IMG/VR virus record: IMGVR_UViG_3300013132_000135
Location: 1 to 33,738 of that record
Direction: 5' to 3' (one strand)
DNA: 33,738 bases
Origin: a virus
Below, in pieces: positions 10,047-29,143 of the stretch. The translations under genes and the position numbers were made by a program. Under the pieces are notes generated by a model. The model had not been told where the DNA came from. It was given only the letters and a program-made list of their open reading frames with translations, and did no database searches. Positions within the stretch are counted from its first letter, which is position 1. Each line of letters begins with the position of its first letter.

Positions 10047-10049
10047 AAA

Positions 10050-13265: not shown

Positions 13266-14060
13266 TTAAATTAAAGTTTTTTTGTCAGCTATTGTTTGTG
13301 AAATATTTGCTGACGCTATCATATATTGACCGTTTGTAACATCGTAAGATTGATCTATTAAAACCCCACTAATTGCAAATGTATCTAAAATATCTCCATA
13401 AGTATCTCTTAATGTAATTACAGAATTAACTGATTTGCCGTCAATATCAATTAAATCCCCTAACGCATTTGATTTCAAGGATACATTGCAGCGTCTATTT
13501 AATTTAGCAACACGAAATGGTAATTTTTCATCGACATAGAAAAACGAAGGTCTTTCGCAAGAAGCTGAATAATCGAAACTAATAATATTATTTATACCAT
13601 CTAAATTATTAGTGTTCATAAACGATCTATAGGCATTAGCTACATAATTAGGAGTTTGAAAATTATTAATATCTGATTGTGTATTTTCAACAAAACTTTG
13701 AACATTGACATTACCATACCAATCAAAATTCGCACTAATTACTATAGGCTGAAAAGGTTCAACTGAAAAACTTATATCTTTTGGATAAAGTCCAGTTATA
13801 GAAACACCTGCAAAAACTCCTGAAACCGCAGACTCATTCAAACCAGTTATATTGATATAAGACGGAAATGAACCAGTTAAATAAAAATCAACAGACAAAT
13901 TACCCAGAACAGCATTCTCAGGAGCATAATCCAATAACGAACCGTCATTCAATAATACAGGAGTAGGTGAACTTTTTGCTGATAAAGAAACTTTAGAAGC
14001 ATAATATTTTTCACCATTAAGTGAAAAAGTCAAATTGCGATAATTAATAAATTTCGCCAT
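13266..14060 (-). CDS. Tail-tube-like structural protein, paralogue of the 301-residue protein
   Basis: This 264-residue beta-rich protein has no named family that I can recall. Its layout matches the product of 15800-16705: an N-terminal 'LNG' strand, 'LDYAPENAVLG', a central segment 'ISFSVEPFQPIVISANFDWYGNV', and a second half with 'SFDYSASCERPSFFYVDEKLP'. The paralogue has 'LDYVPINVLG', 'SFSLACSVGDVPQLTSNFDIYGDI' and 'FNIAFSCPKMPIYG' in the same places. The repeated two-half plan is compatible with a tube- or ring-forming beta-sandwich at the distal tail. It lies 1 base after the fibre gene and 1 base before the M-like gene in the coupled series. Function is inferred from position only. 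Confidence 0.6.
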   Translation of the reverse strand: MAKFINYRNLTFSLNGEKYYASKVSLSAKSSPTPVLLNDGSLLDYAPENAVLGNLSVDFYLTGSFPSYINITGLNESAVSGVFAGVSITGLYPKDISFSVEPFQPIVISANFDWYGNVNVQSFVENTQSDINNFQTPNYVANAYRSFMNTNNLDGINNIISFDYSASCERPSFFYVDEKLPFRVAKLNRRCNVSLKSNALGDLIDIDGKSVNSVITLRDTYGDILDTFAISGVLIDQSYDVTNGQYMIASANISQTIADKKTLI

Positions 14061-14061
14061 T

Positions 14062-15798
14062 TTAAACTATTGTATATGAAATTGTAGAAACAACAGAAAA
14101 ATCTACAGGAAAAGTTTTAGTACCATCCTGCTCTGCTATTCTATATTGCAATAATTGACCAGAACTAAATGAAGTGCTTCCATTAAATTGATTTCTTGAT
14201 ATTGTTAAAAGTTGATTTGCATTCATACTTCCTAAAGAAGCGTAGCCGATGATACCACTTGTTGGATAAGAAGTTGGATTTGAAGGAGGACTAATACTAA
14301 ATCCTGATACAAAACCATCAGGAATTGAAGAGTTGTAAGTCGGTGTAACACTTACAATTTCAATTCTAGGACTATTAGATAAATTCAATATATCTGTATC
14401 AGAAGTTAATAATTGAATTTTTTCTATTCTACCAGCAAAAGGAGTAATAGAAAAAGGCGCTGAATTATTATTATGCCCGCTTGGATTTGTATTTGAACTA
14501 TTAAAGAAAGGATTAAAATAAATACAATTTCCAGTTACCCTTGTTTGATATATTTGAATAAATTTACCATGAACATAACTAGAATCAGTAGTTAAACTAC
14601 CTTTAATATCCAAATCACCATCTCTATTTAAAGAAGCTTTTACAGCAGAAGTGCTTGTGCCTCCATCTAATAAAAATGCAAACTCATTACTATAAGGTCC
14701 AGTGCTAAATAAACCACACGACCATCTTTTCGTAGGACTATTTACTGCGCCCGAAGCAAAAGTTATTATATTTGAAATAACAGGACCTGTAGTTCTATTA
14801 TTTAAAAATAAAATTTCGTTTTGACTGATATCATCTGCTTCAAAAGTTGCCGTTATGGTATCAGCGCTTTTTGCATGTAAAACAGTTTGAGGGCTTGATG
14901 TTCCAATTCCTAATCTTTTGGTTGAACAATCATATAATAAATTATTTGCAGAATTTACGGACGAAGGTCCAAAATTCAAATTATTTCCTAATAAACTTAT
15001 ATAACTTGTAGCGCTTGTATTAGTGATTGATAATTTAGTATTGACAGTGCTTGTATTATTGAATCTAACAAAATGGTCAGCACCTTTCACATCGAAAGTA
15101 TATGCAGGAGATGTTGTATTCACGCCTACATATGGAGTTGCCGCATTATCAATGTATAATACATTATTTCCTAAAACTATATCATCATTAGTTGATTTAT
15201 TAATATAAAATATATCACCAGCAATACTATTTTTTATTTCGCAAACACCCGGATCAAAAATTATACCAGAAACACCACTTTGAAATTTAACTGTTCCGCC
15301 ATTGATATACAGCTTATCGCTCAATGCAGAACTTCCATCATGAACACCGACATTTCCATTAGTATCGATATTAAAAACAGTAGTAAATGAAGATCCATCA
15401 GTAGATTTCTCAATATAATAATCAGTATCGCTAGCTTTTTTTGTAGATCTCCACCAAATTGTATTGTCAGTTAATGTATAAGAAGCTTGTCTGCTAGCAC
15501 CTCTACTTGCTAATCTTGTTTCAGCTATAGTTGCACTACCCTGATCACCAATATCTAAAGCTACAACAGGATTTGTTTTGTTTATGCCAACATAACCATT
15601 AGCACCTACAGTTATACCGCTTGGAGTTGTTCCACCAACAATATCAATACTAGATGAGGTTGGCGCTGTAAATCCAGTGAAACATTTTTGCAATTCGCCT
15701 AATGTGATCTGATCTGTACTAGTTGTTGTTGCAACAGCAAATACATGAGCACTGGATACAGACGAACTAGTAATAACTGGTAGATCAGTAAATTTCAT
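14062..15798 (-). CDS. Tail fibre / adhesin with repeated 'GIGT-P' beta units
   Basis: This 578-residue protein begins with a short attachment-like segment ('KFTDLPVITSSSV', then 'TDQITLGELQK'), common at the N-terminus of phage and viral fibres. It then carries repeated units: 'YVGINKTNP' near 69, 'NVGVHDGSS' near 149, 'YVGVNTTSP' near 223, 'RLGIGTSSP' near 295, and 'GDLDIKGSL' near 393. These are followed by alternating strands such as 'ALDIGD', 'TFDVKG' and 'VLHAKS'. This is the G-[IV]-G-x-x-x-P-x-x-x-L-[DH]-[VA] repeat of trimeric beta-helical fibres. The last ~170 residues differ and may be the receptor-binding head. No S74 autoproteolytic chaperone motif is visible. The gene sits between two paralogous tube-like proteins, an unusual place for a fibre. 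Confidence 0.7.
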   Translation of the reverse strand: MKFTDLPVITSSSVSSAHVFAVATTTSTDQITLGELQKCFTGFTAPTSSSIDIVGGTTPSGITVGANGYVGINKTNPVVALDIGDQGSATIAETRLASRGASRQASYTLTDNTIWWRSTKKASDTDYYIEKSTDGSSFTTVFNIDTNGNVGVHDGSSALSDKLYINGGTVKFQSGVSGIIFDPGVCEIKNSIAGDIFYINKSTNDDIVLGNNVLYIDNAATPYVGVNTTSPAYTFDVKGADHFVRFNNTSTVNTKLSITNTSATSYISLLGNNLNFGPSSVNSANNLLYDCSTKRLGIGTSSPQTVLHAKSADTITATFEADDISQNEILFLNNRTTGPVISNIITFASGAVNSPTKRWSCGLFSTGPYSNEFAFLLDGGTSTSAVKASLNRDGDLDIKGSLTTDSSYVHGKFIQIYQTRVTGNCIYFNPFFNSSNTNPSGHNNNSAPFSITPFAGRIEKIQLLTSDTDILNLSNSPRIEIVSVTPTYNSSIPDGFVSGFSISPPSNPTSYPTSGIIGYASLGSMNANQLLTISRNQFNGSTSFSSGQLLQYRIAEQDGTKTFPVDFSVVSTISYTIV

Positions 15799-15799
15799 T

Positions 15800-16705
15800 T
15801 TAATTTAAATATGATTTATATGTTAATTTTACACTTAATAAGTCATTCGCAGTGGAGTTAATTTCCTCAGATATGATTTTAGCATTAAAACCTGTAAAAT
15901 TAAATAGACCAACACTGTCACCTGATTTCATATAGGCATATAAAACTTCATCGTCCCACGTTGTTAATTCTTGACCATCCCACGTAGTTAGTGGAATATC
16001 TTTTAAAACAGTACCACTTATTTTTATAAAATATGAAGCATCTCCTGTTGAATATAAATCATCAAAAGCTTTTTTGGTTTGATAGTTGTCTACCTCCATA
16101 TCAAAAGAGGTTATAACCTCAATAGGTAGAATATTATGTACTTCTATTGGATATTCACCACTACCACTTACTAATCCATAAATAGGCATTTTGGGACAAG
16201 AAAAAGCAATATTAAAATTATTTACCCTATTAGTATTAAAATTTCTACCTGAAACAGTAATATCTTTTACTTGAGGTACAAAAACGCTTCCAGCATTGCC
16301 ATCTCCAGTTGGATTACTTAAAGGACCTATATCTCCATAGATATCAAAATTAGAAGTCAATTGTGGAACATCGCCAACTGAACACGCCAATGAAAATGAA
16401 TTAATATAAGCATTTTTAAATGAAAAATATTTAGTTTTATAATATAATCCTCCGCTAATACTTTGAGCAAGATTATCTCCCGCATTACCTGTTAAATTAA
16501 ATACAGGATCATTATTTACTAAATATCTTGTAACGCCGATATTTGCTTTTGGAACTGAAGCTAAAACTTGTTTAACATATCCTTTTCCTAAAACATTTAT
16601 AGGTACATAATCTAAACTATAAGAACCATTAACGGAACTTATACCAGACATGGCAACACCATTTAAGTAAAAAGTATTTTCGTAATTTGTAATTGCTCCG
16701 TTCAT
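15800..16705 (-). CDS. Tail-tube-like structural protein (distal tail), first gene after tape measure
   Basis: This 301-residue beta-rich protein is encoded 12 bases after the tape-measure stop. Visible segments are 'FYLNGVAMSGISSVNGSYSL', 'LDYVPINVLGKGY', 'SFSLACSVGDVPQLTSNFDIYGDI' and, in the second half, 'FNIAFSCPKMPIYGLVSG' and 'TSFDMEVDNYQ'. These align by layout with the 264-residue protein at 13266-14060, so I treat the two as paralogues. Its place directly after the tape measure suggests a distal tail ring or tube-cap role, but no family signature lets me name it. The tandem 'TTWDGQELTTWDDEVLYAY' near the C-terminus is a small internal repeat. No Shine-Dalgarno; the leader is TATAATATATAA before ATG. 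Confidence 0.6.
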   Translation of the reverse strand: MNGAITNYENTFYLNGVAMSGISSVNGSYSLDYVPINVLGKGYVKQVLASVPKANIGVTRYLVNNDPVFNLTGNAGDNLAQSISGGLYYKTKYFSFKNAYINSFSLACSVGDVPQLTSNFDIYGDIGPLSNPTGDGNAGSVFVPQVKDITVSGRNFNTNRVNNFNIAFSCPKMPIYGLVSGSGEYPIEVHNILPIEVITSFDMEVDNYQTKKAFDDLYSTGDASYFIKISGTVLKDIPLTTWDGQELTTWDDEVLYAYMKSGDSVGLFNFTGFNAKIISEEINSTANDLLSVKLTYKSYLN

Positions 16706-16717
16706 TTATATATTATA

Positions 16718-19700
16718 TTAGGTATAAGGACTCTTATAAAGTTTACCGTTATATCTTTGCTCATCAGAAAATTTAACGTTCATGAACTGACTAAGTTCGC
16801 GAGCCATTTTCTTACTGAATTGTATATCTTGTTGCTCATAGCTGTTTGTATCAGCACCAAATACAGATCTACCAGATTTATCTATGTTAATAGATATATT
16901 AGTAGCGTTATTGTTTGTACTATTGTTAGTAGTATTCGAAGTACTTGGACCGCCAGTTTGCATCATATTAACAGGACCTTCAGACATAGCGTATCTACGA
17001 GTAGCATTATTAGATAGAATATTTGTATTAGTATTGTAAGTTGACGCCATATTATCAGATATGCGAGATCCATATGGTATAGAACCTCCAGATTGATAAC
17101 CAACTAAACCGCCTAATTGATAACCTTTTATACCTGTATGTGTTACAGAACCGCCTGTTTGACCAGTTGTCTTCAGCGATAATCGTCTGCCAGACATTGT
17201 ATTTTTTCCAACAACACCTTTACCGCCTCCAGATTTAGTCAATGTTACTCCAGAAAGTCCCGCACTCAAAGATATACCGCCAAGCATTCCAACAATTGAA
17301 CTAACTAATTGTGCTTGTTTCATTTTACCTTCGTAATCGCTTTGAACTCTTTTAGCTTCATCTTCAACAGCTTGCTCACGAACTTTTTTGAAGTACTCAT
17401 CTTCAGCAAAAGCATATGCAGTATAATCTTCTAAACTGATTTTTTTCTTAGGTCCAGTATCTCTTAGCAATTGTCCAGTGAAGTCATATTGATCTCCTTT
17501 CAACGCTAATTCTGGTTGCATTGCTATTCCTCCACCTGTAGCAAATCTTGGCAACATTCCAAAATTCAATGCGTCTAAATTATCGTGACCAATAATTTGA
17601 GCAGCTCTTGAATTTACAACATATTCATTTGGTTCTAACAATGCTGGAATTTTATCGCCAGTACCAGAACCCGGCACAACAAATCCATTTTGACCGCGTA
17701 TAAATCCACCATTTTGAGCTTTTACTATTCCTCCTTGTTGAAATAATGAAGATATTGAACCACCTGCTGAACCTATAGCTCTAAACATTAATGCTCTAAT
17801 AGATTCTTGCATTATACTTTGACCAATATTTATAATCATATCAGTGAATGCATCACCGATTGATTTGACTCCTTTTGCTACGTCCATCAATGCGTTAGTC
17901 ATACCATCAGCAAATTTAACTGGTAATTCCTCGGCAATTAATAACGACATTTCTTGAGATTGTTTTTTCATTTCACCAAAACCCTTTTTCAAACGACCGC
18001 CATAAGTTATCATTTCATAATCTCTAGAGTTACGTTCTTTAATATTTTCATCAACTTGTTTGCGACTAATATTCAATATCTCTTTACGAGTGTCTAATTC
18101 ATCCATTAAATTTTTAATCGTAACTGCCAATTCAGTGTTGCCAGCTGCTTGAGCTTTATTTAATTGATCTGCTAAAAATGTTTTTTGACCTTGTATTTGT
18201 TCTGGAATAGAAAGTTTAGCATTTTCATTCTGCATTTTCTGAAAATTAGTCATGAAATCCGTAGTACTATACAGAGGATTTGTAGCTGCTTTAGCAACAG
18301 CTAAACTTCCCATCATTTGAGGACTAACGGCTGTTGCTTTTGTTGCGGCTTGCGTAGCCAAAACAGATTTATATAAATTTATTTTAGCAAGCCTATCAGC
18401 ATCTGTTGCTAATTTTGAAGCTTCTTCTAATTGTTGAGGAACAGGAGAATTTTCTAAAAAACCACTTTCTGTCAATTTAATTCTATCAATATTTTCAGGA
18501 GTCATAATAACTCGATTCAATTCATTTTGAGACATTCCATAATATGGATTTTCTTTTATTTGTGTCAATTCATCAGGAGTTAACTTATTTTCAATTTGCA
18601 TCAACAAAAACTTATTCATTACATCGGTCAAATCTTTAGTAACTTTAGTATTTTCTTGTTCGACCGCAATTTGTAATGCTTTAGATTGGATATCTTGCAA
18701 TAGATTTCTATCTTCGATATTTCGTTGCTCTTTTAAAACATCAGCATCCAAACCTACTCTTCGATCAAGAATTTCTTTAAGTCCTTTAAAATAATCTATT
18801 CTAAAATCTTCTTTCAATCCTTCGTATTTTAATATCAAAGCTTCACTTGTTGCATTAGCAATTTTCAAACCATTTCCAATTTGTTCAACAACACGTTTTA
18901 AAAATAAATTATTATTTAGTATTTTTTGATTAGCTTCTAATTGTAAAGATGTTGTGGATAATATTAATTGAGCATTTTCCTTTTCTAAGGCTTGGCGTAT
19001 TTCAAATTCTTTTTGAGCATTAGATAGCGCTATGTTATTATTTTCTTTATCTGTTTTTAAAATTTGAATTCTGTTATCTAAAATTTCTCTTGTAGTTGAA
19101 TTTTCAAAAGTAGATGTAAATAATGCAAAATTTCTTAATGATTCTATAAAATCAGCAATATCTTTATTTTCTTGAAATGTAAATTGTTGTGCGGGAATAG
19201 AAACTAAACTAGTGTTAATGGCTGGTGCATTTGTTTGAGTTGGCAACGTTACACTTGAAAGTGATGGCACATTTGGAATCAAAGATTGATAGGCTTCAGT
19301 TATCATTTTTTCTCTACCAGATGGAGTAGTAATATCCCCCCGAGATAAAATGCTTTTCAAAATAGGTTGTTTTTGTCCTATTTCTTCAACTTGACGAGTT
19401 AATTCAGTTCCTAAAGTTTCAATAATTTTTGTGGAATCAAATGAGATAGCGCCTGATTTTATTTGTGGAAAAATTGTTTCTTCATAAAACTTACCTAATG
19501 ATTGAGATTTAAGAATTGAATCTTTAAACTCTTTATTAAATTCTTCTGTTTGTTTTTGTTCAAAACTTCTTCTGTCTTTTTCTTGATTTAATTGAAACTC
19601 TAATCTATTTACTTCTAATTGATTCAATTGTCTGTAATATTTTGCAGAAGCGGCTTGTTTACCATACGCTGTTTTTAAAGGACCTTCGGGAAGATTAGAT

Positions 19701-22700
19701 TGAATAAAACTTTCCATTGTTTCAGCAAAAGAATTTCTAAATTCAACTAATGTTTTTTCTATTGACAGCATGCTTTGTCTTTGACCAAGTTCTCTTTCAG
19801 TTAATAATGCGGTCATTAAAATATTTTGTTCAATACGACGCATAATTGTATTGAAACTTTCTGTTGCGGCTTTTCTGACATTTTGTATTAATTTATTATC
19901 AACTCCTAATTTATATAAATCTTTCAAAGCAACTTCAATTTCCAAACTAGAAGAACCACCTAAAAGATCTGCTAGTCTTTGAACTTCATTTCTGAAATCC
20001 TCCGCACCAACAACTAAATCGGGAAAAGCTTCTTTAACTAAATTTTCTACTGTTGATATAAAAGCTTGTCCTTTTAAATTGAAAGCGTTAAATAAATCCT
20101 GTTCAACCTTTGTGCCGAAAAATGCTTGTGCTAAATTAGCAGCAGCAGTTTTAGGACTTTTTACTCCTTTTTGTGCGGTAGTTTGACCACCCATGAAATA
20201 TAGCGAAAATGCATTATCACTAGATTTTAAATTTGCTAAAGCATTTACTAAACCCTGACTCTTTTTGACTTCAATATTATATTTTTGTAATTCTTCAGAT
20301 AGTTTTTCTACATCACTTCCAGCGGCAGAAAGTTTAGCTGCTAATTTTACATCAGCAATTTCAGTAAAACTTAAAGCAACTTGATCGGAAGCCATTTTAA
20401 TTTTATCTTGACTTGCTCCCGAAACAATTAATTCTTGCAAATTACGTAAAGATTCAACATAACCAGTTCCTGCTTGACTTACCTCTTGCAGTTTTTGTAA
20501 ACGTTCATTTGATTTTTGAGCGATTTCTTCTAGACTTAATGAAGCTGATGTTGCGGCATCGGCTAGACCAATTAATCCACCCGCTATCGAACCTATGATA
20601 GTTCCGGGAAGACCGAAGAAAGAACCAAGACTCGCTCCGGTACTGACGGCGGTAATTCCTGTACTTAAAAGAGATTGCCCCATTCTTTCTTTTTGAGTCA
20701 ATTCTGTTCGTGGTTTATTCCCAAAAGCAGCTTGTTCTAATAATCCCGCGATTTGAGGTCCAGCAATCGCTAGAATAGTTCCATATTGACTCGTGCGACC
20801 AGCTTTAGCTTGCTTTCTTTCTTCTTGTAGATTAAGCAAAGCTTTTTCTTCAATAGCGCGAATTCTTTGTAACGAAGTTCCTTTCTTTGGATTTGTTATA
20901 TTTTCTGGTTTATCAAGTTCTTGTTCTAAATTAGCTCTAAAAGTTTCTATAGCTTTGCGTGTTACTTCAACGTCCGATTTTTTGAATATTCTACCGAAAC
21001 CACCAATATCTTTGGTAGCTTCTTTGATATTATCTTGTAACTGTTTAACTAGTTTATCAAAAACTTCTTCTTTGATGCCTAATTGTGAACCAGCGGTAGC
21101 TAAATTTATTTCTGGAGGTAAAGGTCTTTGAATTGCTGTAGGAGCATTTGGATCACCAAATCCACCAGTTGGCATTATACGTTCCCATAATTGACGACCA
21201 GATAATGCATTTTTGTATAATTTATAAGCGCTAACTGATCCAGTTTTCGTTTCAACAGATGGTTCTGTTTCAACTTTATTTCTATCTCTTTTGGCTTTTG
21301 ATTGTTCGTTTACCGGTATTACTTTTGTAGGATTAAGTCCCATCGCTTTTAATTTTTTAATTGCATCTTCTTTATTTTCAGCTTCAATTGGGCCTTTCTT
21401 TTCTCTACCTGTCGAATCCATTGCGGTAAATTTGAATTTGGCAAAATTAGGCACAAAACCATCATTTACTAAACCAGCCGCAATTTGATTATTATATGAA
21501 TCACTTAATGCTTTATTCATACCACCATGGTCAGCAACGGCGGCTGCAAAATTAGGTTGACTACTGTTACGAATGAAAGGGAATGGTCCAGTTGATGTAT
21601 CTAATATTGGCTTATTACCGCTAATACTTGATTCAAGACCCATTACTTTATTTAAATATCCATCAGCGAAATTAGGCAAATATCCTTTTGCAAATTTATC
21701 AACTAAATCAAAAACTCCTATTTTACCTGAATAAATATCTCTAGCAAAATCTTCTTTTTCATCAACTGAATCTCCATAATATTTTGAAAGCTCATCTAGT
21801 AATTGAGTGAATATGTTTTTACCAGACAAATTGAAAGACGTAAAAGGTTGTTTTCTAGATAATCTATATCTGATACCTGTATCTTTGCTGATGCCTCTTT
21901 CTCTATACATCAACTGAGGAAAAGCCATTTTCAATATATCTTTTAAAGATAAATCCTCTATTGGAACATTATCTTTTTTAATTTCACCGGTTATTAGATA
22001 TTTCATTTTCTTTTGAGGCAAAATAGTACTCGAATAAGATTTGACACCCATTCTTCTGGCCATTTTTGAATATCTATGAAACATTTCATGGCCTTCACCG
22101 CGTTCTAACGAATGAATAAAATCTAAATAAAAATGAGGTCCCTTTTCCTCATCTTCTGGAACATAAGAATATTTAAGAAAACTTCCTTTTTTGCTAACAA
22201 TTTCTTTACGTTTATCACCTGCTCGTCCTCTAGGAGTATTTTTAACTATTCTATATTTTCCAAAATTAGGTAGGAATCCTGAATTAAAATGCCCAAATCT
22301 AGGTCTCGAAGCACCATAAAAAGTTCTTCCAATATCGCTATTAAAACCAATATCAAATAATTTCAAACCTTCAATTTTTCTATTCATATCAAAAAAATCT
22401 AATTGTGGATCATCAATCATACCAACGCCAACATTATGACCTTCATTAAAATCACCTTCAGAAAGATTATAATTCGCTAAAAATTCTCTAATTTTGTGTT
22501 CAACATCGCTGAATCTTTTTTCCAAATGCAAAGTTTTTCTTCCATTAACCAATTTATTTCTTGGATAACTTGGTTTAAGAAACCATCTAGAACTTTTGCC
22601 AGTAAATTTTTCAAAATCTTTTTCTTTTGCTGAACGCATTTTTTCTAAAATACCCCATAAGAAATTATTTTCATCATATTCGAAACCTTTTGGTAAAATA

Positions 22701-25700
22701 TCAGAATAATTTTCTTGTGCAAAATAATCATTAGATAATATAGGAAACTCAACTTCATTTTGAGCGATACCTGCTTTATTCATTGCAATTTTTAATCCTC
22801 GTTTTTCATCCAATGGAATAAACATTCTAGATGAACCTTTTTTAACACCTTTAATTTTTAAAGATTGTATATATTTTAATAATTCTTTACCAGAAGAAAA
22901 AGAAGATAAAACTTTTGGATTCAAGCTAGAATTTAAATCAGCAAAATTAGGTAGAAAACCTTGTGAAAATTCATCGACAATCTGATCAACTCTTGTATCT
23001 CTTGAAAGTAATTCATCTCGAAGATGAATCATATCAATAGGATTTCGCTCGTCATAATAAGGTTTAACAGCTGAAACTAATGAAGAAAATATATTTTTAC
23101 CTTTTAACTTCTCATCATAAAGACCAGCTCTTTCAATAGTATAAGTAATATCACTATTTTTAGTAAGTCCTCTTTCGCGATATACAAGTTGAGGAAATGC
23201 CATTTTCAAAATATCTCTGATTGACATATTCTCAAGAACATATTTATGTCTTTGATGAAATTCGCTTAAAGAATCGAATTCATCTTTTGGTATAATATCA
23301 GATAATTTTGTTTGTGGCATTAACATTGAAGAATAAGACTTAACACCTAATCTTCTTGCCATCTTAGAATATCTATCAAACATTTCATGACCTTCGCCTG
23401 TTTTATATGAATTAATATAATTAAAATCCATATGACGCCCACGCACTCTATTACTTGAAACGTAAGAATATAATAATGAACTACCAGACTCGTTGGCCGC
23501 AATCGCTCTATTTCTTCTTCTTTGACCTTTATCTGCTGTTCTTACAATCTTATATTTAGCAAAATTAGGTAAAAAACCCCTATTTACTGTATCTAATAAA
23601 TCTGAAATTTCAAAACCATTATTAATTATATCATCATATAGAGATGCAGAATCTCCTTTATACATATACTCTGAAGCGCCAACAACTTTTTGTAAAATTT
23701 GTTTTCCAGAAATTATTTTTTCAATGACTCCACCTTGACTCAACCTACGAATCATTGTCAAAGATGTATTTTTACCTTTTCCTCTTTCTCTATAATTTAA
23801 TTGAGGAAATGCAGTTTTTATAATGCTATAAAAATCTGCTGTTTCTTTGTCTAATTCATCAAGCTCTCTTTCTTGAGGAAGAATTGTACCTGAAGCAATA
23901 TTTGATTTTAATCTACGAGCCATTTTAATAGCTCTAGCCCATAATTTCCAACCTTCACCTTTTTCTCTGGATTCAACATATTTAATATTCAATAATTTTT
24001 CATTTTTGTCATATTTATATTGCATATCACTTCCAGATGGCAAAGTAAGGAGATGTTGATCTCCATATAAACCAATACCACGTTTAATATTAAATGGAGC
24101 AAGATTCGGTAGAAATCCAGAAGACAAACCAAGCATTTTGGATGTCTCGTCTCCTTCATCCCATCTTATTCCAATTGGTAATTTTGCAACTCTAACAATA
24201 GCAAATATTTTACTAACTTCTTTTTTTGATAAACCACCTGCTGATTGAAAAAGTTTTTGAGCGTTAACGGGATTTGTTCTTTTCAATGCTTTACCAGCTA
24301 TCGCATCAGGATATAAAGAATGTTGAGATGAAACTGCTCGTATCAAACTTTCAGGACCTAATTCTGCTAATCTACTTATTGAAGCTCCGAATTCTGGATT
24401 TTTTTTATAAAAATCCAATATATCAGGCTCAATAAAAGGAGTAACAATTTCTCTAATTTTTTTCAAACCTAATACTTTATAAAACTTTTTAAACAAAGCA
24501 GTTAGATCATTTGTAGAAGTACCTTCTTGAACAAATTTTTTAGCTAATTTCGGATATGCTTGTTTTAGTTTTTCTATCACCATTTTATTTCCAGACAAAC
24601 CTTTGATTAAACCTCTATCGCCTTGAACAGTGCCAGCTTGAGCACCAAATATAACTCTCGATCCAGATTCAATATATGGTTGAATCATTTTAACCATATC
24701 TGTTATTTTAGATTTATTTAAAAATGCTGCACCCATTCCCGGTCTTACAAATGGATATTCAGGACCGCCTCCAAATTCTCCAGATAAGGCATCATATAAA
24801 GAACTGACAAATAAATTAGAACCTTTACCAACAATTCTTGGAGTTTTAGAACGTTTAGCAAAATTTGGAATATAACCTGTATTTTTTAATTCTTCTTTGT
24901 TTTTGCCATGAGAATTGACAATTAAAACGTTACTCCAATTTCTTAACTGTTCATCAAGATTATCTTTCAATTCACTGCGTACTCTTAAAAATTTGCTTTG
25001 TACGGGACCTGTATCGTAACCGCCACTTTTAGCTTCAAAAAATGTACCTGATACTGGATTAAAAAAATCAACAGAACTATTAGGACCACCGGGTATTTTT
25101 AAATCAAATGGAAAACTATTCATCTGAGCTGAATATGTATTAGGTTGCAAATAATTTAATGCTAATTTTTCAAATGTTTTACCTGATTTATCAGCTGTGG
25201 ATTCTGGACCGCCATCCAAATTCAATGTAGTATAACCGCCAAATTGAATATTGGATTTCATAAACGCATTTTTTAATTGCGCTGAAGACGCAGAAACTAA
25301 TTCGTCTCCAATTTTCCAATACGCTGTTTTGGGGCTACCCGGTGATGAATAAGTTTTAAGAGCGTCTTCTACACTTTCGAATCCTCCTAAAATAGAACGC
25401 ATTTCGTCTCTTGTAGCAGTTCTATCAACTTTAGGTTTTTCAGCTGCAAAATTAGGAACATAACCAGCAGATAAAATACTACCGCTTTTACCAGAAGATA
25501 TCATTTGTATGGCTTTTTTCATTCCGCCACCATACTTAGGAATTACTGCTGTTTCTCCAGAACCAGCGAAATTGGGTATTTGTAGTTCTTGATTATTAGC
25601 GATGAATTTCTTACCGCCTATTTTTCCGATTCCAGAAACAGCTTTAACTCCAGAATTTGCGCCTAAAGATTTAGCGCCCATCACCTCTTTTTTGACAGAA

Positions 25701-27361
25701 GGCACAAATCCATCACTACGAGTAACTCTCAATCCACCACCCGCAGTTTCACCAACAACGGTAGCTCCTTGATATGATAATTGAGAAGCTAGTGATTTTG
25801 CTAACGTACTTTGTTTTTGATATTCTGCAGTTTGTGCTCTGGCAATTTCTAATAAATATTTTGCTTGAGCAGCTTCATTTCCCATGTGACCTTCAAGAAT
25901 TCTAGCAGCATCACTTTGACTTTGCATTATTTTCAGAATAGCTTGTTCAAGATTTTTTCTATTCTGCGTTTCTGTTGTAATACCAATAATTTGAGGTATT
26001 GCAGCTGTAAGCTGAGTAAAAGATTTCTGTATTAACTTAAATAATGTAAAGAAAGCTAAAACAGCACCCGGACCTGCCAATACATTTCTGATACCTTTCA
26101 GTAATCCATTTGCAAATGTAGATCCTAAACCTTCACCTTCTAAAGTTTCATTTAATGTTTCAAATAAAGATTTGAATTTTCCTACAGCATATTTTGCCAA
26201 AGGTTCAAATGTTACTTTACCAATATTAGCGGCAAATTGTTGAGCAACAGTAGATGTTTGACTTAATAAAGCGTCTAATGATAAATTTAGTTTAGCAACA
26301 GCCATTTCAGCTTCATTCGAAGCTTCAGCTCCTTTTCTTAATGCGCCATTATATGCACTTTGCGCACCATCTAAATCAGATATAATACTTTTAAGAATGT
26401 TAACTTGATAAACACCTGCAACTTGTTCTGATAATTGCGCTTTTTGTGAATCAGCCAATCCTCTATAAGCTGAAGCAAAATTCTTAAGAATTGTAACTGC
26501 AGGTAAAATATTACCCTGCATATCTCTAACTTTAATATTAAAGTCTTCTAATTGATCAAGCGTTTCAGTTCTTTGTAAACGTGTGAAAATAGTTTTCAAT
26601 GCGTTACCAATTACAGCGCCACCACGAGCGGTTTTTTCTTGAGCTGCTGTTACTAATGCATTTAATTCATCTATATTTACGCCTGCTTCTTGAGCGGCCA
26701 AGCCTGTTCTAGAAAGAGCTTCTGCTAAGTCTCCAGCACTTACAGCGTAACTTTGTTCTACAGCGACTAATTTATTTAATACTTGAGTTGTTGTTATTCC
26801 AGTAGCCTTGAAACCATTAACAGTAGCAGTTAATGCTTCAATCGCATTACTGACATTCATTCCCGCTAATCTGGCAAGAGATAGAGCGTCAGTTGTTCTT
26901 TGTATAACTTCTTCAGCTTTAACACCTTGACGTGAAAACTCTAATGCAGCTTGAGATGCGTCTTTAAATGACGAAGCTGTCATTTTACTGACATTAAATA
27001 ATTCAGAACTGAATTTTTGTAATTCTTGAGTGGAAAGACCAAATACGCGATTAATATCAGTTAGATTCTTTTCAACATCTATTGTAACTTGTGCAATACT
27101 TTTAAAACTTCTTAGAACACCGCCTAAAACAGCTGTTGAAGCACCGAATGCAATAACACGTGCATTAGATGCTGCCAATGCTGCTTCGAAATCTTTGACA
27201 TCTCCCGTTATTCTGCCAAGAGGCTGAGAAAATGATCTTGCATTAATCCCTAAATTAATTTGATTCTGACTAGCAAATTTTTGATTATACGCTTGTATAC
27301 CCGCTTGTATAGATTGAACTAAAGCGGCTTGATTTGCAGCTACATTGATTTGAACAGCCAT
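16718..27361 (-). CDS. Giant tape-measure protein with internal domain array
   Basis: This 3547-residue protein sets tail length and leaves the tail with the DNA. The N-terminus (about 60-400) matches the phage minor-tail/TP901 tape-measure family ('FGASTAVLGGVL', 'FKDASQAALEFSRQG', 'DLAEALSRTG', 'NALKTIFTRLQ'). Hydrophobic stretches occur at ~425-450 and ~2190-2230. Residues ~2000-3250 are mainly helical and coiled. The C-terminus has the tape-measure ending 'ADGMTNALMDVAKG', 'GTGDKIPALLEPNEYVV' and 'FATGGG'. Residues ~550-2020 are atypical: ten PNFA-like motifs separate globular-looking blocks (annotated separately). Lambda gpH is 853 residues. By the lambda ratio, the non-array part (~2100 residues) would give a tail of about 300 nm and the full length about 530 nm. 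The start ATG follows a GTGTAAATA leader motif. Confidence 0.95.
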   Translation of the reverse strand: MAVQINVAANQAALVQSIQAGIQAYNQKFASQNQINLGINARSFSQPLGRITGDVKDFEAALAASNARVIAFGASTAVLGGVLRSFKSIAQVTIDVEKNLTDINRVFGLSTQELQKFSSELFNVSKMTASSFKDASQAALEFSRQGVKAEEVIQRTTDALSLARLAGMNVSNAIEALTATVNGFKATGITTTQVLNKLVAVEQSYAVSAGDLAEALSRTGLAAQEAGVNIDELNALVTAAQEKTARGGAVIGNALKTIFTRLQRTETLDQLEDFNIKVRDMQGNILPAVTILKNFASAYRGLADSQKAQLSEQVAGVYQVNILKSIISDLDGAQSAYNGALRKGAEASNEAEMAVAKLNLSLDALLSQTSTVAQQFAANIGKVTFEPLAKYAVGKFKSLFETLNETLEGEGLGSTFANGLLKGIRNVLAGPGAVLAFFTLFKLIQKSFTQLTAAIPQIIGITTETQNRKNLEQAILKIMQSQSDAARILEGHMGNEAAQAKYLLEIARAQTAEYQKQSTLAKSLASQLSYQGATVVGETAGGGLRVTRSDGFVPSVKKEVMGAKSLGANSGVKAVSGIGKIGGKKFIANNQELQIPNFAGSGETAVIPKYGGGMKKAIQMISSGKSGSILSAGYVPNFAAEKPKVDRTATRDEMRSILGGFESVEDALKTYSSPGSPKTAYWKIGDELVSASSAQLKNAFMKSNIQFGGYTTLNLDGGPESTADKSGKTFEKLALNYLQPNTYSAQMNSFPFDLKIPGGPNSSVDFFNPVSGTFFEAKSGGYDTGPVQSKFLRVRSELKDNLDEQLRNWSNVLIVNSHGKNKEELKNTGYIPNFAKRSKTPRIVGKGSNLFVSSLYDALSGEFGGGPEYPFVRPGMGAAFLNKSKITDMVKMIQPYIESGSRVIFGAQAGTVQGDRGLIKGLSGNKMVIEKLKQAYPKLAKKFVQEGTSTNDLTALFKKFYKVLGLKKIREIVTPFIEPDILDFYKKNPEFGASISRLAELGPESLIRAVSSQHSLYPDAIAGKALKRTNPVNAQKLFQSAGGLSKKEVSKIFAIVRVAKLPIGIRWDEGDETSKMLGLSSGFLPNLAPFNIKRGIGLYGDQHLLTLPSGSDMQYKYDKNEKLLNIKYVESREKGEGWKLWARAIKMARRLKSNIASGTILPQERELDELDKETADFYSIIKTAFPQLNYRERGKGKNTSLTMIRRLSQGGVIEKIISGKQILQKVVGASEYMYKGDSASLYDDIINNGFEISDLLDTVNRGFLPNFAKYKIVRTADKGQRRRNRAIAANESGSSLLYSYVSSNRVRGRHMDFNYINSYKTGEGHEMFDRYSKMARRLGVKSYSSMLMPQTKLSDIIPKDEFDSLSEFHQRHKYVLENMSIRDILKMAFPQLVYRERGLTKNSDITYTIERAGLYDEKLKGKNIFSSLVSAVKPYYDERNPIDMIHLRDELLSRDTRVDQIVDEFSQGFLPNFADLNSSLNPKVLSSFSSGKELLKYIQSLKIKGVKKGSSRMFIPLDEKRGLKIAMNKAGIAQNEVEFPILSNDYFAQENYSDILPKGFEYDENNFLWGILEKMRSAKEKDFEKFTGKSSRWFLKPSYPRNKLVNGRKTLHLEKRFSDVEHKIREFLANYNLSEGDFNEGHNVGVGMIDDPQLDFFDMNRKIEGLKLFDIGFNSDIGRTFYGASRPRFGHFNSGFLPNFGKYRIVKNTPRGRAGDKRKEIVSKKGSFLKYSYVPEDEEKGPHFYLDFIHSLERGEGHEMFHRYSKMARRMGVKSYSSTILPQKKMKYLITGEIKKDNVPIEDLSLKDILKMAFPQLMYRERGISKDTGIRYRLSRKQPFTSFNLSGKNIFTQLLDELSKYYGDSVDEKEDFARDIYSGKIGVFDLVDKFAKGYLPNFADGYLNKVMGLESSISGNKPILDTSTGPFPFIRNSSQPNFAAAVADHGGMNKALSDSYNNQIAAGLVNDGFVPNFAKFKFTAMDSTGREKKGPIEAENKEDAIKKLKAMGLNPTKVIPVNEQSKAKRDRNKVETEPSVETKTGSVSAYKLYKNALSGRQLWERIMPTGGFGDPNAPTAIQRPLPPEINLATAGSQLGIKEEVFDKLVKQLQDNIKEATKDIGGFGRIFKKSDVEVTRKAIETFRANLEQELDKPENITNPKKGTSLQRIRAIEEKALLNLQEERKQAKAGRTSQYGTILAIAGPQIAGLLEQAAFGNKPRTELTQKERMGQSLLSTGITAVSTGASLGSFFGLPGTIIGSIAGGLIGLADAATSASLSLEEIAQKSNERLQKLQEVSQAGTGYVESLRNLQELIVSGASQDKIKMASDQVALSFTEIADVKLAAKLSAAGSDVEKLSEELQKYNIEVKKSQGLVNALANLKSSDNAFSLYFMGGQTTAQKGVKSPKTAAANLAQAFFGTKVEQDLFNAFNLKGQAFISTVENLVKEAFPDLVVGAEDFRNEVQRLADLLGGSSSLEIEVALKDLYKLGVDNKLIQNVRKAATESFNTIMRRIEQNILMTALLTERELGQRQSMLSIEKTLVEFRNSFAETMESFIQSNLPEGPLKTAYGKQAASAKYYRQLNQLEVNRLEFQLNQEKDRRSFEQKQTEEFNKEFKDSILKSQSLGKFYEETIFPQIKSGAISFDSTKIIETLGTELTRQVEEIGQKQPILKSILSRGDITTPSGREKMITEAYQSLIPNVPSLSSVTLPTQTNAPAINTSLVSIPAQQFTFQENKDIADFIESLRNFALFTSTFENSTTREILDNRIQILKTDKENNNIALSNAQKEFEIRQALEKENAQLILSTTSLQLEANQKILNNNLFLKRVVEQIGNGLKIANATSEALILKYEGLKEDFRIDYFKGLKEILDRRVGLDADVLKEQRNIEDRNLLQDIQSKALQIAVEQENTKVTKDLTDVMNKFLLMQIENKLTPDELTQIKENPYYGMSQNELNRVIMTPENIDRIKLTESGFLENSPVPQQLEEASKLATDADRLAKINLYKSVLATQAATKATAVSPQMMGSLAVAKAATNPLYSTTDFMTNFQKMQNENAKLSIPEQIQGQKTFLADQLNKAQAAGNTELAVTIKNLMDELDTRKEILNISRKQVDENIKERNSRDYEMITYGGRLKKGFGEMKKQSQEMSLLIAEELPVKFADGMTNALMDVAKGVKSIGDAFTDMIINIGQSIMQESIRALMFRAIGSAGGSISSLFQQGGIVKAQNGGFIRGQNGFVVPGSGTGDKIPALLEPNEYVVNSRAAQIIGHDNLDALNFGMLPRFATGGGIAMQPELALKGDQYDFTGQLLRDTGPKKKISLEDYTAYAFAEDEYFKKVREQAVEDEAKRVQSDYEGKMKQAQLVSSIVGMLGGISLSAGLSGVTLTKSGGGKGVVGKNTMSGRRLSLKTTGQTGGSVTHTGIKGYQLGGLVGYQSGGSIPYGSRISDNMASTYNTNTNILSNNATRRYAMSEGPVNMMQTGGPSTSNTTNNSTNNNATNISINIDKSGRSVFGADTNSYEQQDIQFSKKMARELSQFMNVKFSDEQRYNGKLYKSPYT
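21311..21439 (-). other. Tape-measure segment resembling the GspF/PilC N-terminal motif
   Basis: Residues 1975-2017, directly after the last PNFA motif, read 'FKFTAMDSTGREKKGPIEA' followed by 'DAIKKLKAMGLNPTKVI'. This resembles the short cytoplasmic N-terminal motif of type II secretion/type IV pilus GspF/PilC proteins (F-x-Y-x-A-x-D-x-x-G ... A-x-x-x-L-x-x-x-G-x-x-P). The similarity is by eye and may only reflect a common small beta-alpha unit. Confidence 0.3.
21677..22258 (-). repeat. Tape-measure block F: third copy of repeated GNAT-like domain
   Basis: Residues 1702-1895. It begins 'KYRIVKNTPRGRAGDKRK' after PNFG, has 'HFYLDFIHSLERGEGHEMF' (GEG at 1755-1757), 'SKMARRMGVKSYSS', 'ILKMAFPQLMYRERG' ending at 1823, and 'GKNIFTQL'. 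Closest to block D. The kinase-like block E separates the two close copies, so duplication was either dispersed or followed by insertion. Confidence 0.5.
22271..22939 (-). other. Tape-measure block E: protein-kinase-like domain
   Basis: Residues 1475-1697 lie between PNFA motifs. The order of kinase-fold landmarks is present: 'RGLKIAMNKAG' with candidate ATP-binding Lys1524, 'AQNEVEF' with Glu1536 or 1538, a hinge-like 'FLWGILEKM' (1567-1575), a catalytic-loop-like 'GDFNEGHNVGVGM' with Asp1637 and Asn1643, and 'GLKLFDIGF' with the D-x-G at 1670-1672. Asp to Asn spacing is one residue longer than the usual D-x4-N. Kinase-like domains of this 'LKIA-N-G-QN-E' type occur in phage proteins; activity here is inference. 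Confidence 0.5.
22952..23557 (-). repeat. Tape-measure block D: second copy of repeated GNAT-like domain
   Basis: Residues 1269-1470. It begins 'KYKIVRTADKGQRRRNR' directly after PNFA, has 'HMDFNYINSYKTGEGHEMF' (GEG at 1322-1324), 'SKMARRLGVKSYSS', 'ILKMAFPQLVYRERG' ending at 1398, and 'GKNIFSSL'. It is very close to block F, with the 'GVKSYSS' and 'YRERG' segments identical in both. Confidence 0.5.
23570..24097 (-). repeat. Tape-measure block C: first copy of repeated GNAT-like domain
   Basis: Residues 1089-1264. Conserved with blocks D and F: a strand 'LLNIKYVES', the turn 'REKGEG' (Gly1135, Gly1137), a helix 'IKMARRL', then 'ILPQ', and 'FPQLNYRERG' (1185-1194), followed by 'SGKQIL'. The strand, GxG turn and helix recall the acetyl-CoA pyrophosphate loop (R/Q-x-x-G-x-G) of GNAT acetyltransferases. 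Only this copy keeps an Arg at the first position (Arg1132). It is the most diverged and shortest copy. Confidence 0.45.
24110..24856 (-). other. Tape-measure block B: unidentified globular domain
   Basis: Residues 836-1084 lie between PNFA motifs. The first part is alpha/beta-like, with 'GSNLFVSSLYDALSGEFGGG', 'FVRPGMGAAFLNKSKI' and 'SRVIFGAQAGTVQGDRGL'. The second part is largely helical ('FKKFYKVLGLKKIREIV', 'LAELGPESLIRAVSSQHSL') and ends with 'LPIGIRWDEGDET'. The repeated Gly-rich turns could bind a phosphate-containing ligand, but no family is recognised. Confidence 0.4.
24869..25444 (-). other. Tape-measure block A: PD-(D/E)xK nuclease-like domain
   Basis: Residues 640-831 lie between two PNFA motifs. 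The second half has the layout of a PD-(D/E)xK restriction-endonuclease-like fold: a helix with 'GKTFEKLALNYL' (Glu731), 'FPFDLKIPGG', 'SSVDFFNP' (Asp765), then 'TFFEAKSGG' (Glu776-x-Lys778), and a helix start 'GPVQSKFLR' (Gln788). The Glu, Asp, Glu-x-Lys and following Gln are the residues expected for an active site. The first half (640-720) is unassigned. The assignment rests on motif order seen by eye. Confidence 0.5.
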
Positions 27362-27387: not shown

Positions 27388-28386
27388 TTAATTTCCAAAT
27401 ATTTTCAACATGTCTTCCATGCTTAAACTACCGCCTTTTTTCTTAGCTTCATCAGATAAAGATAAAGTTTTTTGACCGGGTTTAGTTATATTCAAAAATT
27501 CGAGATCTTCTTTTGTAGCGCCAACCAATGATTCTGCTCTATTTTCTTTATTACTATTTTTCTCTCTTAATTTCTTAGCATTTTCATTAGCATTTATGTA
27601 ATCAATAATTTTATCCGGATCCTGACGTATTTCAGCAGGCATATTTTCATTTTGCTGAAAAATATTTTTATAAAATCTAGCATATATCAATAATCTCAAC
27701 TGATTATATGATAATTCACTAACCGATTTGTTGAAAAACTCCAAAGGGCTTTCACAAAATGGCATATAAAGATTAAAAAACTCTTGTAAAACAATTCTCT
27801 GTATAGCATTATCAGTAATATCTCTATAAGCATTATTGTATTGTTTTATAATTTCAAATAATGTTTCTGAATCTATAGTATCAAAATCTTTTTCTTCATA
27901 CAAAGGCTCAGAAAATTTTTTATCTTTATAAATACATTTTATGATATAATAATCGTTAACCCTATCTTCAGCATAAGATTCGGCAGTTCTTGCAAATAAT
28001 GAAGCGCGAGTGTTTTTTAAATCATTTAAAGTTATTGTATTAGCTTCTATTTCTTTATTTAATCTTTCAATTTCAGATTTAAGAAAGGTATTTTTTTTCT
28101 GAGTGTGAAAACCTTGTATCATTTCCTCATATTGAGTGATTTTATTTTCTTGATTCTGAGTCCATTGCTTTTCTTCAACCAATTGCTTCAATACATCATT
28201 ATGTTCAGGAACACCCTTAGATTTAGCTTCTTCAAAATATTTATCATATATCAATTCAAGATCGACTTGATCATCAAAAGATATATGTTTAAGATAAAAA
28301 AAATTCTCTAAGATTTTAATCTCAGAGAATCCATTTTTTATCTCTTTGAAGATTCTTTTATATAAATTATTCTTCGACTTTTCCAT
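27388..28386 (-). CDS. Probable tail assembly chaperone, second gene of pair (gpT-like position)
   Basis: This 332-residue, mostly helical protein lies directly before the tape measure. Residues ~65-140 are a charged coiled-coil-like region ('FLKSEIERLNKEIEANTI'). The C-terminal half has 'LSYNQLRLLIYARFYK', and the end 'KGGSLSMEDMLKIFG' looks like a short docking tail. In lambda this place holds T, made as a frameshift fusion G-T, which binds the tape measure during assembly. Here the ATG overlaps the upstream gene by 20 bases and has no Shine-Dalgarno. The frame is +1 (equivalent to -2) relative to the upstream gene, so either coupled re-initiation or a +1/-2 frameshift could make it. The chaperone role is from position only. 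Confidence 0.5.
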   Translation of the reverse strand: MEKSKNNLYKRIFKEIKNGFSEIKILENFFYLKHISFDDQVDLELIYDKYFEEAKSKGVPEHNDVLKQLVEEKQWTQNQENKITQYEEMIQGFHTQKKNTFLKSEIERLNKEIEANTITLNDLKNTRASLFARTAESYAEDRVNDYYIIKCIYKDKKFSEPLYEEKDFDTIDSETLFEIIKQYNNAYRDITDNAIQRIVLQEFFNLYMPFCESPLEFFNKSVSELSYNQLRLLIYARFYKNIFQQNENMPAEIRQDPDKIIDYINANENAKKLREKNSNKENRAESLVGATKEDLEFLNITKPGQKTLSLSDEAKKKGGSLSMEDMLKIFGN

Positions 28387-29143
28387 CTATTTCATTGATA
28401 ATTCTATCAAATTCCTCTTCATCAATTGCACTAGTAAAGAACCAATAGCTAATAACACTTGCTAATTTAGAATAGCATTTTTCGTAAATTTCATTTACAT
28501 TTTCTTCATATTCATACATTACTGCTTCTTTAGCTTCAAAAGTTTTGCCGGGAAAAAGAGGTTCAAAATCTACATTCTTTTTAGAAGAATCTTTAAAATA
28601 AGTTAAGTTCAATACATACCAAAGAATAGCTCTATTCTGTGCCTTAATATCGGCGGTATGATTGAATAATGTGATATAACTAGTTTCTTTTTCAATCAAT
28701 GTCTTACGTTTCTGAAGTATTTGAGAAGTAAGATCGTCTATCTTAGATTTATCTTCGTCATCTCTTTCTGATTCAGGTTTTAAATTTAAAATAGTAAGTT
28801 TAGCTTGTAAATCACGAATTTCATCAGCTGAATTAACCATTACCTTTGCATCAGCTTCACTAATAAGACCGCCGGTATCATTATATTTATTCAACAACAT
28901 CGCTTTAGTAAGAATACCATTTCTGATACAACGGCTCATCTCTATACTAAATTCCATATCTGCATCTTGAATCTGCTTACGAGATGGTTGATTGATCTGA
29001 ATTTGTACAGGAATTTCTTTTTTGATCTTCTCTTTATATGTACGAGTTACAGTTTCTCCGCTTTCGTTAGTAATTGTTTCTGTTTTTTCTTCTTCGATTT
29101 CAGCTAACTTTTGAATTGTAAATTTGTATAAAACTTTGGCCAT
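28367..29143 (-). CDS. Probable tail assembly chaperone, first gene of pair (gpG-like position)
   Basis: This 258-residue protein opens the minus-strand tail operon. It has an acidic N-terminal hairpin with 'NESGETVTRTYKEKIKKEI', then 'QIQINQPSRKQIQDADMEFSIEMSRCIRNGILTKAML', a pattern I associate with chaperone-like proteins preceding tape measures in long-tailed phages. A coiled coil (~105-155) and a helical C-terminus ending 'DGKVEE' follow. Its gene is divergent from the head-closure-like gene, with 56 bases between. It overlaps the next gene by 20 bases. It could instead be a small structural protein; position before the tape measure is the main support. Confidence 0.5.
   Translation of the reverse strand: MAKVLYKFTIQKLAEIEEEKTETITNESGETVTRTYKEKIKKEIPVQIQINQPSRKQIQDADMEFSIEMSRCIRNGILTKAMLLNKYNDTGGLISEADAKVMVNSADEIRDLQAKLTILNLKPESERDDEDKSKIDDLTSQILQKRKTLIEKETSYITLFNHTADIKAQNRAILWYVLNLTYFKDSSKKNVDFEPLFPGKTFEAKEAVMYEYEENVNEIYEKCYSKLASVISYWFFTSAIDEEEFDRIINEIDGKVEE

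Follow-up and report, generated by a model that had tools for sequence, protein, structure and literature searches.

The question raised by the DNA stretch analysed here (IMG/VR virus record IMGVR_UViG_3300013132_000135, positions 1 to 33,738; the whole of these 33.7 kb is called the window below) is why a phage tape-measure protein (TMP) contains in its middle a row of blocks that resemble enzymes. We consider it likely, with a probability of about 0.68, that a siphovirus TMP took up an exchangeable array of enzyme cassettes and that the tail delivers these enzymes into the host ahead of the DNA.

Cassettes and motifs of the tape-measure protein

The TMP is encoded by a single open reading frame (ORF) of 3547 aa on the minus strand (16718-27361). 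In a Pfam scan, PF10145 (PhageMin_Tail) matched residues 124-316 with an E value of 2.9e-27, above the cut-off, and eleven PHROG tape-measure families matched the first part of the protein. The tape-measure identity proposed in the initial annotation was thus supported. The same annotation had described the middle of the protein as not tape-like, with ten PNFA-type motifs separating blocks of 180-253 aa that were taken to be nuclease-like (one), without identification (one), GNAT-like (three) and kinase-like (one), and all of this was borne out. The middle is enriched in Pro/Gly (0.124) and aromatic residues (0.108) over both the N part (0.084 and 0.059) and the C part (0.083 and 0.058). Ten PNFA-type tetrapeptides lie at residues 596, 636, 832, 1085, 1265, 1471, 1698, 1896, 1936 and 1971; eight of the ten copies fit the strict motif G-[FY]-[LIV]-P-N-[FL]-[AG], for which the amino acid composition gives an expectation of 0.0002. 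No copy of the strict motif was found elsewhere in the window when all frames were checked. Six blocks, referred to as cassettes, lie between the motifs at 636 and 1896, and their assignments were upheld by motifs, profiles and models. The features are as follows:

16718..27361, minus: TMP gene, single ORF, 3547 aa
25727..27361, minus: conserved TMP N-terminal region, residues 1-545 (69-86% identity over residues 40-480 in 35 contigs)
25436..25723, minus: N-side linker module, residues 547-642 (weak motif at 596, strict motif at 636)
25445..25456, minus: PNFA motif at residue 636 (GYVPNFA)
24869..25444, minus: cassette 1, PD-(D/E)XK-nuclease-like, residues 640-831 (E731, D765, E776, K778)
24857..24868, minus: PNFA motif at residue 832
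24110..24856, minus: cassette 2, no family assignment, residues 836-1084
24098..24109, minus: PNLA motif at residue 1085
23570..24097, minus: cassette 3, GNAT-like, residues 1089-1264 (paralogue of cassettes 4 and 6)
23558..23569, minus: PNFA motif at residue 1265
22952..23557, minus: cassette 4, GNAT-like, residues 1269-1470 (AlphaFold2 model, mean confidence score pLDDT 68, motif ends below 50)
22940..22951, minus: PNFA motif at residue 1471
22271..22939, minus: cassette 5, kinase-like, residues 1475-1697 (G1509, K1524, E1538, D1637, D1670-x-G1672)
22259..22270, minus: PNFG motif at residue 1698
21677..22258, minus: cassette 6, GNAT-like, residues 1702-1895 (44% identity to cassette 4)
21440..21691, minus: C-side linker module, residues 1891-1974 (motifs 1896, 1936 and 1971)
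16718..21439, minus: TMP C-terminal part, residues 1975-3547 (mostly 25-31% identity to relatives)

Pfam searches with the window blocks gave nothing useful. Cassette 1 likely belongs to the PD-(D/E)XK nuclease superfamily, as predicted from E731, D765 and E776-x-K778 (the helix Glu, D and ExK signature), which were invariant in an alignment of six sequences. A search for stand-alone copies of this cassette yielded only TMP loci that were already known. For cassette 2 there was neither a Pfam match nor a phage tblastn match at E 10 nor a relative among the fetched loci; kinship with a nucleotidyltransferase cassette was considered and rejected, since the two were unrelated by BLAST.

Structures were predicted for two of the six blocks, cassettes 4 and 5. 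Both were modelled as globular alpha/beta folds and not as a helical rod, and in both models the motifs resided in low-confidence ends (pLDDT below 50) outside the folds. All of the 50 VIA matches listed for cassette 4 were acetyltransferases (Z 5.4-7.0). Moreover, cassette 4 matched the profile of another cassette family with an hhalign probability of 95%, and the PDB matches of that family were acetyltransferases; a PDB sequence-profile search with the GNAT-like family of the window itself returned no match. The acetyl-CoA motif R/QxxGxG/A is present as RxxGxG in cassette 3 and as GxG alone in cassettes 4 and 6. The only HExxH string of the window, at TMP residue 1758, lies in a helix of a GNAT-like block.

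The kinase-like cassette 5 gave a model with a pLDDT of 77 and a predicted template modelling score of 0.76. Its Gly loop, beta-3 Lys, alpha-C Glu, catalytic Asp and DxG were invariant in 20 sequences. The top 50 VIA matches were kinase-fold proteins nearly throughout, including SAICAR synthetase (Z 6.7-8.2, 116-158 aligned residues), and the same was true of the top Foldseek matches (best E 4e-3). Against PDB profiles, the family gave a borderline match to the secreted effector kinase SteC (E 0.009). Homologues of cassette 5 in unrelated phages are mostly whole genes of 195-276 aa lacking the motif, so the motif coincides with the ends of a gene. Many phage contigs carry members of the kinase-like family (GIAQNEVE motif; L341-L366) as small separate genes, and others lie within proteins of 700-1870 aa; there is no Pfam family for it. 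Aligning the blocks jointly for a multi-domain model was abandoned, as GNAT-like rows were pulled onto the kinase-like block.

The codons of the motif are close to background synonymous usage, except for a CCT bias at Pro, and 127 copies were encoded by 52 distinct 18-mers. Judged by this variation, the motif is conserved at the protein level. Its two weaker copies, at residues 596 (LQIPNFA) and 1936 (SSQPNFA), reside within the flanking linker modules. The N-side and C-side modules are homologous (domain E 9e-7 in the window TMP); on this homology, the cassette array is bracketed by related linkers. The C-side module was detected in 164 ORFs, as a single copy in 161 and as two copies in three.

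Exchange at the motif and spread among phages

Close relatives of the whole middle region were found neither in IMG/VR nor in INPHARED, because the cassettes are swapped. With the N-terminal region as query, by contrast to a sample found through the motif and hence biased to motif carriers, we obtained an unbiased set of 35 IMG/VR contigs (69-86% identity). The motif was present wherever the protein was complete, and the TMPs were 2203-3137 aa long. In most relatives, 65-73% identity extended up to residues 638-650, ended near the first motif and resumed at the C-side module, which shows about 60% identity among relatives. The remaining relatives share a related cassette, and their first alignment therefore passed the motif, at lower identity. 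The blocks between the motifs of this group formed 28 clusters whose orders and numbers vary; six cassettes, as in the window, are the most seen.

A clean insertion distinguishes two near-identical TMPs. In L034, 528 nt that are lacking in L033 add one whole cassette in frame; the breakpoints fall within GFIP|NFA, and the sequences on either side are 98% and 94% identical. In a survey of mosaicism in phage proteins, recent mosaicism of tape measures could not be confirmed (PMC10684548); this pair is a clear case of it. In four pairs of near relatives, DNA identity was mostly 0.77-1.0 up to the motif, about 0.15-0.5 in the extra cassette and 0.85-0.97 just past the last motif. In three pairs it dropped again about 70 codons further on, at the end of the linker module, which indicates that the C-terminal part of the TMP is also exchanged there as a unit. 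Replacement of this C-terminal unit beyond the array, from the last motif of the linker module, was seen in L007, L006 and L026 as compared to L016 and L013. One cassette is 73-76% identical between TMP lineages whose N-termini share 38-44%. These comparisons show, at the level of the genes, that phages gain, lose and swap cassettes with breakpoints at the motif, both ends of the protein being retained. Together with the position of the motifs in the models, the gains and losses support the motif as the boundary of the cassettes, as had been suggested.

Gain of cassettes was not offset elsewhere in the TMP: its correlation with the length of the rest of the protein was 0.08, and total lengths ranged from 2203 to 3547 aa. 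Hence, the length of the tail either follows the cargo or ignores it.

To what extent the arrangement recurs was determined by running DNA patterns for GFIPNFA, GYIPNFA and GFVPNFA on IMG/VR, each of which gave at least 120 loci. Among the matches listed, to which the counts in this paragraph refer, 302 loci contained the motif in an ORF, 243 of them with two or more copies in that ORF, so that the arrangement recurs across hundreds of phage contigs. The TMP N-terminal profile (a hidden Markov model) was detected in 186 of 257 non-redundant motif ORFs; most of the others are cut off on that side. The motif-carrying ORFs represent at least 24 TMP lineages at 50% identity. The permuted control GFINPFA occurred at 44 loci in the entire IMG/VR collection, none of them with two copies, as compared to 44 of 120 loci with two or more copies for the first true pattern. 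At least 94 block families, an approximate count, were distinguished, most of which have no Pfam family.

The catalogue of blocks with conserved active sites includes, by motif conservation in relatives, P-loop NTPase, HAD-like hydrolase, protein-kinase-like, ADP-ribosyltransferase (ART)-like and further nuclease-like families, besides GNAT, GHKL and zincin types. The PD-(D/E)XK signature is found again in several further cassette families, among them the largest, which has 154 members, and HEXXH is present in four block families of relatives. Pfam searches with the relatives' cassettes gave GNAT (E 1e-3), GHKL ATPase (3.8e-5) and a cytidyltransferase-related family (3.5e-8, above its cut-off); PDB sequence-profile searches with the HAD-like and kinase-like K10 families gave no match. 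Compared with the flanks of the same proteins, the cassettes contained Walker A, HEXXH and HAD motifs at a density higher by 3- to 9-fold or more. The retained catalytic residues argue for the cassettes being active enzymes. Two composite cassettes were also observed. One (L083:4865-6145:-) joins a P-loop to a HIGH-type nucleotidyltransferase region (PF16581) in an order that recalls NadR-like NAD enzymes; the other (L059:5021-6748:-), of 576 aa, combines a GHKL ATPase-like region with an HExxH zincin-like motif.

Ten contigs from metagenome-assembled genomes (MAGs) carry TMPs of this clade and several show the motif; half were binned to Flavobacteria, a binning that is unreliable for phage contigs. 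On these bins, aquatic Flavobacteriia would be a tentative guess for the hosts. Two MAG contigs binned to Neomarinimicrobiota and Halobacteriovorax (L367 and L368) encode TMPs that exceed 3500 aa and whose motifs are variant (GMVPNYA, GLIPNFA) and more widely spaced.

Probable delivery into the host and alternative explanations

Downstream of the TMP gene, the window contains genes for a minor tail protein, a tail assembly protein and central fibre J, in the manner of a lambda-like tail operon. No tail sheath was found among the window ORFs scanned, and the phage is therefore most likely a siphovirus. TMPs fill the tail lumen and exit during infection, and the N-terminus of the diffocin TMP points toward the collar (PMC11329794). 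The lambda TMP was labelled at the inner membrane during injection (PMC13190303), and in Thermus phage P23-45 the TMP carries an N-terminally fused RNA polymerase, which virions contain as part of the full-size protein and which acts on pre-early genes (Chaban et al. 2024, PMC10770324). On the strength of this TMP biology, the bacterium probably receives from the tail, along with the viral DNA, a set of enzymes that varies between phages.

According to this explanation, an array of small enzyme domains would have been acquired between the conserved N-terminal domain of the TMP and its C-terminal rod, each cassette being a complete globular domain followed by what may be a flexible linker with G-[FY]-[ILV]-P-N-F-[A/x]. 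The array would be held in the head-proximal tail lumen in a stretched or partly unfolded state; for the cargo of phage crAss001, partial unfolding in the tail was proposed (PMC10172136). By analogy, it would exit once the C-terminal rod has left the tail and before the DNA follows, refold in the host and, within minutes of the start of infection, act on nucleic acid, proteins or nucleotides of the host, in counter-defence or take-over. The role of the motif is the least certain step. It may be a protein-level joint to which the tail tube or a tail chaperone binds in the course of packing, or which is cut after delivery, and its repetition may also offer recombination a homologous seam. For the broader proposal of a widespread, undescribed delivery platform in uncultured aquatic siphoviruses, composed of a TMP chassis, a plug-in site, the GFIPNFA motif and covalently linked enzymes injected ahead of the genome, we see slightly better than even odds. 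The block families are candidates for functions in early take-over or counter-defence.

Several points weigh against this explanation. The tail tube, which also has to accommodate a TMP trimer, leaves hardly any room for a folded domain of 200 aa, and unfolding or a special packing must therefore be assumed. The structural matches are modest, as no Foldseek E value was below 1e-3 and Z scores of 7-8 fall into the zone in which the tool warns of chance matches; the domain calls therefore rest on motifs and profiles as well. The GNAT-like model reached a pLDDT of 68 and the canonical R/Q of RxxGxG is missing in two of the three copies, while cassette 2 has no assignment. A cultured phage with such an array was not seen, the best N-terminal identity in INPHARED being about 28%.

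Of the other explanations, two also assign an enzymatic role to the cassettes. The motif might chiefly be a proteolytic site, the TMP being a polyprotein that is cut in the tail or in the host to free the delivered enzymes. A seven-residue motif kept as protein in predicted disordered linkers at each boundary would suit such a site. On the other hand, further copies of the motif reside in the flanking modules, and since these keep the TMP in one piece, cleavage there would break the tape. Moreover, no protease gene was recognised near the TMP gene, though several ORFs there have no assignment. The P23-45 RNA polymerase remains in the full-size TMP in virions (PMC10770324). We regard proteolysis as the chief role of the motif as rather doubtful, at about one chance in four. 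A little less probable again is that the cassettes act at the envelope or on the passing phage DNA, by local DNA processing or modification of the channel, and not as cytoplasmic effectors. This is in line with TMPs forming or lining the injection channel (PMC10770324, PMC13190303) and with the activity at the pore proposed for the P23-45 polymerase, yet it is not obvious what substrate the kinase-like, ART-like and acetyltransferase-like types would find there, and the rapid exchange of cassettes resembles adaptation to host targets.

That the cassettes are structural filler, made of borrowed and inactive enzyme folds and tuning the length or flexibility of the tail, would agree with the uncompensated growth of the protein. 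This is quite improbable, as in several families no positions are more conserved than the active-site residues, and a linear coiled coil would be better suited as a ruler. Hardly credible at all is an origin as selfish inserts, such as inteins or homing nucleases, in a neutral site: the insertions are indeed precise and many blocks nuclease-like, but many types are not nucleases, the blocks build up one after another, the boundary motif is conserved at the protein level, and scans against Pfam and NCBIfam revealed no intein family. Delivery of active enzymes by the tail thus remains the explanation that we prefer.

Some observations concern the neighbourhood of the TMP gene. Directly upstream of it, the ORFs 28367-29143 and 27388-28386 (minus strand) share a 20-nt overlap that fits tail assembly chaperones arising from a programmed frameshift (G/GT type); support for a chaperone role of the two ORFs was found in neither PHROG nor Pfam. 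In Lactococcus phage phiL47 (L384:6086-7078) and Bacillus phage 2S-4 (L385:6200-7186), both distant but with related TMP N-termini, a tyrosine recombinase gene (Phage_integrase, E about 1e-20) is located directly upstream of the TMP gene. The window ORF upstream of the TMP gene was rejected as a recombinase, as it has neither similarity to these nor a Pfam match. Neither a PHROG match nor a significant Pfam match was obtained for five tail-region ORFs (8538-11405 and 13266-16705, minus strand).

Comparison with known systems

The closest parallel is P23-45, in which likewise an enzyme is located in the N-terminal part of a siphovirus TMP, there virion-borne and acting at the start of infection. 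It differs in that it is one conserved RNA polymerase with neither an exchangeable array nor a boundary motif; the DxDxD signature of the P23-45 type polymerase is absent from the window TMP. The initial annotation had drawn a comparison with polyvalent proteins (Iyer et al. 2017, PMC5512222). It is apt in kind, short of demonstrated membership, since these join disparate enzyme domains in one polypeptide with predicted injection along with the DNA, and the window TMP likewise combines nuclease-like, GNAT-like and kinase-like domains, with more types in relatives. The kinase, GNAT, ART, nuclease and zincin classes overlap. With regard to the zincin-like release peptidase of polyvalent proteins, HEXXH was seen in four block families of relatives, and the single HExxH string of the window in a GNAT-like helix. 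As differences, the word "tape" is absent from PMC5512222, and here a TMP is the carrier, its scaffold being fixed and a motif marking the boundaries at which exchange takes place.

Sle1 and Tme, effectors of contractile injection systems (CIS; PMC13277306), share a TMP-like carrier, diverse domains and delivery through a tube. They belong to bacterial CIS and have one C-terminal domain each, in contrast to two to six internal cassettes in series in a phage TMP; DUF4157, a domain of certain CIS effectors, was not found in the Pfam scan of the window TMP. The crAss001 cargo (PMC10172136) is also stored in the tail, with ejection after partial unfolding proposed, but consists of separate proteins with neither TMP fusion nor cassette exchange. 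Peptidoglycan hydrolase domains in the TMPs of mycobacteriophage TM4 and phiIPLA35, as mentioned in PMC13277306 and PMC11329794, are embedded enzymatic domains as well, according to these mentions single ones that act on the cell wall. Literature naming the motif together with a tape measure, or describing such arrays, was not found in a search whose coverage excluded most subscription papers and preprints.

Hence, single TMP enzymes, polyvalent proteins and TMP-like CIS effectors are known, and the motif-delimited exchangeable array in a TMP appears to be new within the literature covered. Such arrays make it possible to study how folded proteins pass through a long non-contractile tail and whether a short linker motif controls packing or release. 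TMPs have been regarded as rulers and channel formers, and the enzyme-bearing TMP of P23-45 was described as an unexpected association; the same idea is encountered here as an exchangeable array of several predicted enzymes in at least 24 TMP lineages.

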